64,000 nt of DNA from an uncultured Lachnospiraceae bacterium (GTDB lineage: Bacteria; Bacillota; Clostridia; Lachnospirales; Lachnospiraceae), in contig CAMEJJ010000007.1 in assembly GCA_945919795.1 (NCBI GenBank), forward strand, positions 1-64,000, read 5' to 3'. The number at the start of each line of letters is the position of its first letter. Within the stretch, counting starts at the first letter, position 1. Below the pieces are notes generated by a model that saw nothing but the letters and a program-made list of their open reading frames with translations, made no database searches and had not been told where the DNA came from. Below, piece by piece: positions 12,003-34,593 of this stretch. Position numbers and translations under genes: made by a program.

Positions 12003-12233
12003 GTTGGGTGGAAATATATCTCATGCGAGTTAATTGCAAAGATGCTGCCTTTTGACTTAGTATTTTGGTCTTATTTCAGCAATTCGCAGCACGGATGCTG
12101 CGAAAGGTGCACGTCGGACATGGATGTCCGGGTGCACCGGTGCGTCCGAAGTCAATTCACTTTCCCAAAATACTTAGTCAAAATCAGCATCGAAGCCTTA
12201 ACTCGCATGAGATATATTCCACCCAACGTCCCC
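12003..12233. repeat. Foldback inverted repeat element with branched core (E)
   Basis: GTTGGGTGGAAATATATCTCATGCGAGTTAA ... TTAACTCGCATGAGATATATTCCACCCAAC; nested CCTTTTGACTTAGTATTTTGG/CCAAAATACTTAGTCAAAA; core hairpins TTCGCAGC-acggat-GCTGCGAA and GGTGCACgtCGGACATggATGTCCGgGTGCACC. Confidence 0.9.
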
Positions 12234-34116: not shown

Positions 34117-34252
34117 TTGCAAAAAATGCCCTACCTATGTTATATTGATGATAGAAAAAGGGAAAGCTAGAGAAGCGGCTACCCTCAAGTAATAAGCATA
34201 CTGTTTTTACAAACAGCCGTCACTACTGCGAATAGTGGCGGCTATTTTCGTT
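34117..34252 (+). ncRNA. Predicted antitoxin RNA of a type I TA module, convergent with the toxin mRNA
   Basis: TTGCAA-N18-TATATT promoter (34117-34146); RNA ~34153-34252 ending in AGCCGTCACTACTGCGAATAGTGGCGGCT hairpin (34215-34243) shared with the toxin 3' end. Confidence 0.65.
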
Positions 34253-34337
34253 TTCCCTTGAAAATCGTGTAACACAATCCAACAAGGGCGCAAATGAATA
34301 TTCCAATCTGAATTAAATCAGTATATGTAACATACAT
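34242..34337 (-). CDS. Putative holin-like type I toxin, 31 aa (TxpA/Fst-like)
   Basis: MYVTYTDLIQIGIFICALVGLCYTIFKGKRK: one TM plus a basic tail; RBS AAAGGAGGG; missing from the ORF track because of its size. Confidence 0.8.
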   Translation of the reverse strand: MYVTYTDLIQIGIFICALVGLCYTIFKGKRK

Positions 34338-34593
34338 TGGCAACGCCCTCCTTTCTTTCGTCTAGAGGGTTAGCCCCTCCGAAAAAAGAGGGTAAGCCGC
34401 CCGGCTCTCTAGTTTCCCATACAATTATAATATCATTGTGAGTCGTTCCTTTCAATCAAAACTACTACTATCCACGATAACAATCTTGCTTATTTTATAC
34501 GTAGCGGTAGTTTTTCTTGAAAACTTGGCGTTTTTATGTATAATTAAAATGTATGTCTAACTTTAAAAAATATAGAAAAACAGAGGTTTTACA

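Follow-up and report, generated by a model that had tools for sequence, protein, structure and literature searches.

What does the short stretch of DNA beside an ABC-F gene and a GGDEF gene in an uncultured Lachnospiraceae bacterium encode? The window analysed here, 64,000 nucleotides of contig CAMEJJ010000007.1, comes from a genome of 3.1 Mb in 64 contigs, and an earlier note had proposed that it holds an unannotated type I toxin-antitoxin module. That proposal gains support from a conserved peptide, convergent promoters and a putative antitoxin terminator lying over the toxin stop codon. With a probability of roughly 0.8, we read the locus as a chromosomal type I toxin-antitoxin module of the TxpA/BsrG/SprG (Hol_Tox) kind, whose toxin mRNA would fold back on itself and be opened by the antitoxin; the reading is drawn from sequence comparison.

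The toxin ORF (34337-34242, minus strand; 31 aa, MYVTYTDLIQIGIFICALVGLCYTIFKGKRK) is Hol_Tox-like and was previously unannotated; its product has a single predicted membrane helix and a KGKRK tail. The good ribosome-binding site claimed for this minus-strand ORF is the Shine-Dalgarno (SD) sequence GGAGGG (34346-34351, minus strand), located 8 nt upstream of the ATG and almost invariant across 73 modules. Pairwise dN/dS is ~0.21, indicating purifying selection on the peptide. In a Pfam search the window peptide scores 18.8 bits against Hol_Tox (PF16935; cut-off 23.3) and its nearest homologue 21.4 bits, while other close homologues pass at 27-32.5 bits, which supports the claim of a holin-like toxin. 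The proven toxins BsrG (34.5 bits; the sequence used is 100% identical to the SPBc2 record) and TxpA (31.3 bits for the sequence used) are members of the same family. A further match of the family profile (E 8e-4) is PDB 7NS1, the NMR structure of SprG1-31 of Staphylococcus aureus (PMC8309996). The predicted TxpA/BsrG/SprG membership is carried by intermediate homologues, not by the window peptide alone. No second close copy of the peptide was found in its own genome; two other Hol_Tox-like loci occur there, L002 (G000:C4:3776-3850), whose peptide lies above the cut-off at 28.9 bits, and L003 (G000:C37).

The toxin was said to have its own promoter, and one is present, although not at ~34435-34470 as claimed: TTGAAA-N17-TATTAT, with an extended -10, occupies 34427-34455 on the minus strand, and the toxin RNA would start near 34420. 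The claimed plus-strand promoter TTGCAA-N18-TATATT, with an extended TG, is found at 34117-34146, and the antitoxin RNA would start near 34153. A search of relatives for the peptide together with convergent promoters had been suggested, and both prove to be conserved. A tblastn search at E ≤ 0.01 detects the peptide in 87 of the 397 genomes searched from the same family, frequently with more than one copy, and an alignment of 73 modules shows conservation of both -10/-35 pairs, the leader, SD, ORF, hairpin and antitoxin 5′ end. Conservation runs from the toxin -35/-10 to the antitoxin -10/-35, with the flanks at background; this promoter-to-promoter unit is ~300 bp long.

The predicted antitoxin RNA (34153-34254, plus strand) is ~100 nt long, with complementarity over its full length to the 3′ portion of the extended toxin mRNA. 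Its conserved promoter, 5′ domain and terminator argue for the convergent RNA of about this length that had been postulated. A covariance model of the antitoxin, R1, matches the window at 34155-34254 with 93.9 bits, a match by construction since the window's module was among the 25 used to build it; the model also finds the antitoxin in named strains, at 85-102 bits, and found no second copy in the module's own genome. The only Rfam match of the module was RefA9 (RF02844), at 25.4 bits against a cut-off of 49; it was not seen in ten homologous loci and counts as no more than a lead. Phages and plasmids gave no DNA match to the module, the one weak phage protein match was to a faecal phage record (E 0.8), and PADLOC called no system. 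Elsewhere in the window, positions 12034-12198 (plus strand) match the TwoAYGGAY RNA (RF01731) with 98 bits.

RNA folds of both transcripts were obtained as thermodynamic predictions. The toxin leader contains three elements (34365-34392, minus strand) that can act on the SD, CCCTC at 34392-34388, GGAGGGG at 34380-34374 and CCCTC at 34369-34365; they form alternative pairings, every one of which hides the SD in the predicted leader fold. The mean unpaired probability of the SD in this fold is 0.02, in keeping with the proposed SD sequestration in cis, and 56 of 58 modules are predicted to stay below 0.1. Positions 34388-34418 (minus strand; GGGAAACTAGAGA...GGCGGCTTACCCTC) form the 5′ arm of a predicted helix that joins the two ends of the toxin mRNA, with 34411 and 34168 as an example of a T/A pair. 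The 3′ arm lies at 34160-34186 (minus strand), its plus strand being the antitoxin 5′ domain GGGAAAGCTAGAGAAGCGGCTACCCTC, and just past it a U-tract (34150-34159, minus strand) probably marks the 3′ end of the toxin mRNA; such a tract (at least 6 T of 12) follows the arm in 55 of 59 modules. Folds of the extended toxin RNA predict the helix with a probability of ~1 for the window and of 0.81 on average for the 59 modules, which were chosen by short anchors in both arms, a selection that favours pairing. Co-variation of the arms provides an independent test. Cognate arms pair at -43.6 kcal/mol and non-cognate arms at -37.2 (0 of 2000 permutations), and exchanging arms within disjoint nearest-neighbour pairs is energetically unfavourable in 21 of 25 pairs (p = 1.2e-4). 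At L002 the arms are likewise complementary, with a sequence that differs from the window's.

The helix changes the meaning of a motif, GGCTnACCCTC, that had been described as shared between toxin leader and antitoxin. The motif is indeed shared, but the antitoxin copy at 34177-34186 reads GGCTACCCTC and lacks the 'n'; moreover, its assignment as an SD-pairing element gives way to a better explanation, namely one arm of the co-varying 5′-3′ inverted repeat. There is no direct repeat between leader and antitoxin: the only direct repeat sits within the leader, and the one between leader and antitoxin is inverted.

It might be argued that the module is as described but that this inverted repeat plays no part in the RNA, having arisen by inverted duplication of promoter and leader and owing its likeness to recombination. 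The arms are similar in sequence, the hairpin loop at the toxin stop codon occurs in both orientations, which implies that inversions or template switches happen, and species exchange antitoxin halves by recombination, as seen for the window and L072. We nevertheless judge this unlikely: most disjoint pairs of relatives show co-varying arms, the stretch between promoter and arm diverges rather than staying similar, and bsrG of phage SPBc2 (L100), unrelated in DNA, has the same 5′-3′ helix when folded here.

A second structure bears on how the two RNAs end. The toxin stop codon lies inside the stem of a hairpin at 34215-34243, which with the U-tract after it makes up the predicted antitoxin terminator (34215-34253, plus strand); read on the toxin strand, this U-tract corresponds to the final Lys/Arg codons of the toxin, those of the basic tail. 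If at least 7 T in the 12 nt after the hairpin count as a U-tract, 67 of 84 modules have one on the antitoxin strand, and none has one on the toxin strand. In all 84, the antitoxin form of the hairpin is the more stable (mean -18.5 kcal/mol in the antitoxin RNA versus -12.3 on the toxin strand); where the toxin strand has a C-A mismatch, the antitoxin has a G-U pair. The stem pairs of the hairpin show two-sided changes among modules. By these signals the hairpin is a terminator of the antitoxin only. The earlier note had correctly placed the toxin stop codon in it, but had both RNAs ending there, which the toxin-strand count contradicts.

That count also weighs on an Fst/par-like reading, in which a bidirectional terminator would be common to both RNAs and the antitoxin CCCTC would block the toxin SD in trans. 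Convergent promoters, a hairpin on both strands and a CCCTC in the antitoxin at 34182-34186 would all suit it; with no toxin-strand U-tract, however, a bidirectional terminator as in Fst/par was not found in any of the 84 modules. Only about half of the modules have retained ACCCTC in the antitoxin, and antitoxin pairing with the SD region is just 1.1 sd better than shuffled, so that the SD sequestration in trans by CCCTC once proposed is hinted at rather than borne out. The inverted sense of the leader/antitoxin repeat, with none direct, speaks against it too, as does the Pfam search, in which Hol_Tox was the sole family reported for the window peptide up to E 10, with no match to Fst; the peptide has no PXXXG motif and no proline at all. 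We consider this reading unlikely.

Two further observations concern the hairpin. Its stem-loop is found in both orientations, as ACTACTGCGAATAGT and as the reverse complement (e.g. window 34215-34243 and L006), and looks as if flipped by template switching. Four loci (L043, L058, L061 and L086), always located at contig ends, make up a subtype whose hairpin loop is enlarged (GGATCTTACGCAAAGTAAGTGATTAT) and has a separate toxin-strand terminator after it.

Returning to the Hol_Tox-type module with a fold-back toxin mRNA, we propose the following mechanism. The toxin mRNA (~265 nt, from 34420 to ~34155) would pass the hairpin and terminate at the U-tract on the far side of the antitoxin gene, and its 5′ end would pair with its own 3′ end, with the SD largely hidden. 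The antitoxin (~100 nt) would pair with the whole 3′ part of the toxin mRNA, probably beginning as a loop-loop contact at the hairpin. Binding would open the 5′-3′ helix and free the leader CCCUC for a tighter lock on the SD; the SD is somewhat more exposed in the fold of the full-length mRNA than in that of the leader, and when the antitoxin-covered part is removed, its unpaired probability falls from 0.13 to 0.036 in the family and from 0.32 to 0.023 in the window. The long duplex of antitoxin and toxin mRNA would then be a substrate for RNase III. Without the antitoxin, the peptide would enter the membrane and growth would stop. A tentative extension, which we regard as doubtful, is that the antitoxin 5′ domain copies the leader 5′ arm and so mimics and replaces it, turning a self-locked into an SD-locked mRNA before decay as a general Hol_Tox switch, and that antitoxin genes were born by inverted promoter-leader duplication.

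The module is not confined to this genome. Named hosts in the family include Roseburia inulinivorans, R. faecis, Clostridium fessum, Blautia, Dorea and Enterocloster, among others, and in a sample of 295 genomes from the order 23 were positive, in Lachnospiraceae and mostly one other family. Copies from the strains R. faecis M72 and R. inulinivorans DSM 16841 are found at L108, L101 and L131. Most homologues show homology that stops at the module ends. L108, from Roseburia faecis, is 90% identical to window 34136-34437 across 303 bp whose ends lie close to the two -10 boxes, and the bare module has likely been transferred horizontally between the two genera. These ends raised the idea of a mobile mini-element, which was rejected as no target-site duplication stands out. 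At L072 (G302) the antitoxin 3′ part is identical to the window over ~65 nt and the toxin differs; halves of the module recombine between species. Three tandem modules with a 371-bp period occupy L035 669-1504 (G280:C11), on the same contig as L137, in Enterocloster hominis BX10.

At the site itself congeners differ. One (G397) has a module with a ~70% identical toxin upstream of this ABC-F gene; in two (G399 and G400) all that is left is the hairpin with roughly the final ten codons of the toxin, immediately 3′ of the GGDEF stop codon; and in three (G385, G398 and G401) the GGDEF and ABC-F genes are adjacent with no module between. Because sister species lost most of the module there, it is dispensable at this site. 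The decayed modules L182 (G400) and L183 (G399), just upstream of the ABC-F gene, have perhaps been reused as terminators.

This history bears on whether the locus is a toxin-antitoxin module at all, or instead a small regulatory membrane peptide with a tuning antisense RNA, serving the neighbouring ABC-F or GGDEF gene. The congener module that adjoins the same ABC-F gene would fit a regulatory peptide, as would L052, from another genus, where homology continues into the ABC-F gene; against it, the homology of most homologues ends with the module, many copies occur per genome, some in tandem, sister species have lost it, and the peptide family is that of proven toxins, so that we think it very unlikely. 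Finally, 31-aa ORFs are common in any sequence, but the negligible possibility of a chance ORF near ordinary promoters and a terminator is already refuted because the peptide and the whole architecture are conserved across the family.

The toxin-antitoxin module is, as far as its sequence indicates, a new and widespread gut Lachnospiraceae branch of a kind known from Bacillus and Staphylococcus. Common gut members (Roseburia, Blautia, Dorea and Enterocloster) gain a frequent toxin-antitoxin system that we have not found described; in a single member, Clostridium bolteae, TxpA-like sequences had been reported (PMC6563280). With so many co-varying copies, the RNA mechanism proposed for bsrG/SR4 can be tested by comparison.

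Among known systems, Fst/par of pAD1 (RNA I/RNA II; PMC7472228) shares the convergent promoters, a hairpin region on both strands and an SD hidden in cis. Here, however, the repeat is inverted rather than direct, there is no counterpart of the direct repeats (DRa/DRb) crossed by both RNAs, the hairpin would end the antitoxin only, and the peptide has neither a Pfam Fst match nor PXXXG. As in hok and AapA mRNAs (PMC6733600), the full-length toxin mRNA is predicted, with co-variation, to close its 5′ end on its 3′ end. The antitoxin here, in contrast, overlaps the toxin 3′ end convergently, and there is no sign of the 3′ processing step needed there; that removing the 3′ end lowers SD accessibility in the folds speaks against such processing. 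SprG1/SprF1 of S. aureus offers a likeness at the level of the peptide, a 31-aa single-helix membrane protein; its antitoxin works via an overlapping 3′ end (PMC10579593), and, unlike the module here, SprG1 also gives a 44-aa form and sits on a mobile element.

TxpA/RatA of the Bacillus subtilis skin element has in common with the module the Hol_Tox N-terminal motif, a convergent antitoxin overlapping at the 3′ end and, probably, a toxin terminator within the antitoxin gene; TxpA, however, has 59 aa rather than 31, and RatA is reported to act via RNase III decay with SD pairing unchanged (PMC6562991). A further system is BsrG/SR4 from the B. subtilis SPbeta prophage, again a Hol_Tox peptide with a convergent antitoxin over the toxin 3′ end, whose U-tract is complementary to Lys-rich tail codons (bsrG read from L100). 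The systems differ in that no DNA similarity was noticed, BsrG has 38 aa against 31 here, SR4 is a four-stem-loop RNA with ~120 nt of overlap against an antitoxin of ~100 nt, and the module here is chromosomal, not in a prophage. The two toxin mRNAs also agree in a main 5′-3′ helix and in an SD that is masked in cis and becomes more firmly locked once the antitoxin has bound; for the module here these features are predictions. SR4 is reported to bind bsrG helix P1 in its 3′ part and to lengthen SD pairing from 4 to 8 bp (PMC6562991); its contact lies far downstream of the SD, and RNase III cleavage follows the lengthening of the SD stem. Because the closing of the SD on 3′ removal matches these reports, a BsrG/SR4-like mechanism is the one we favour.
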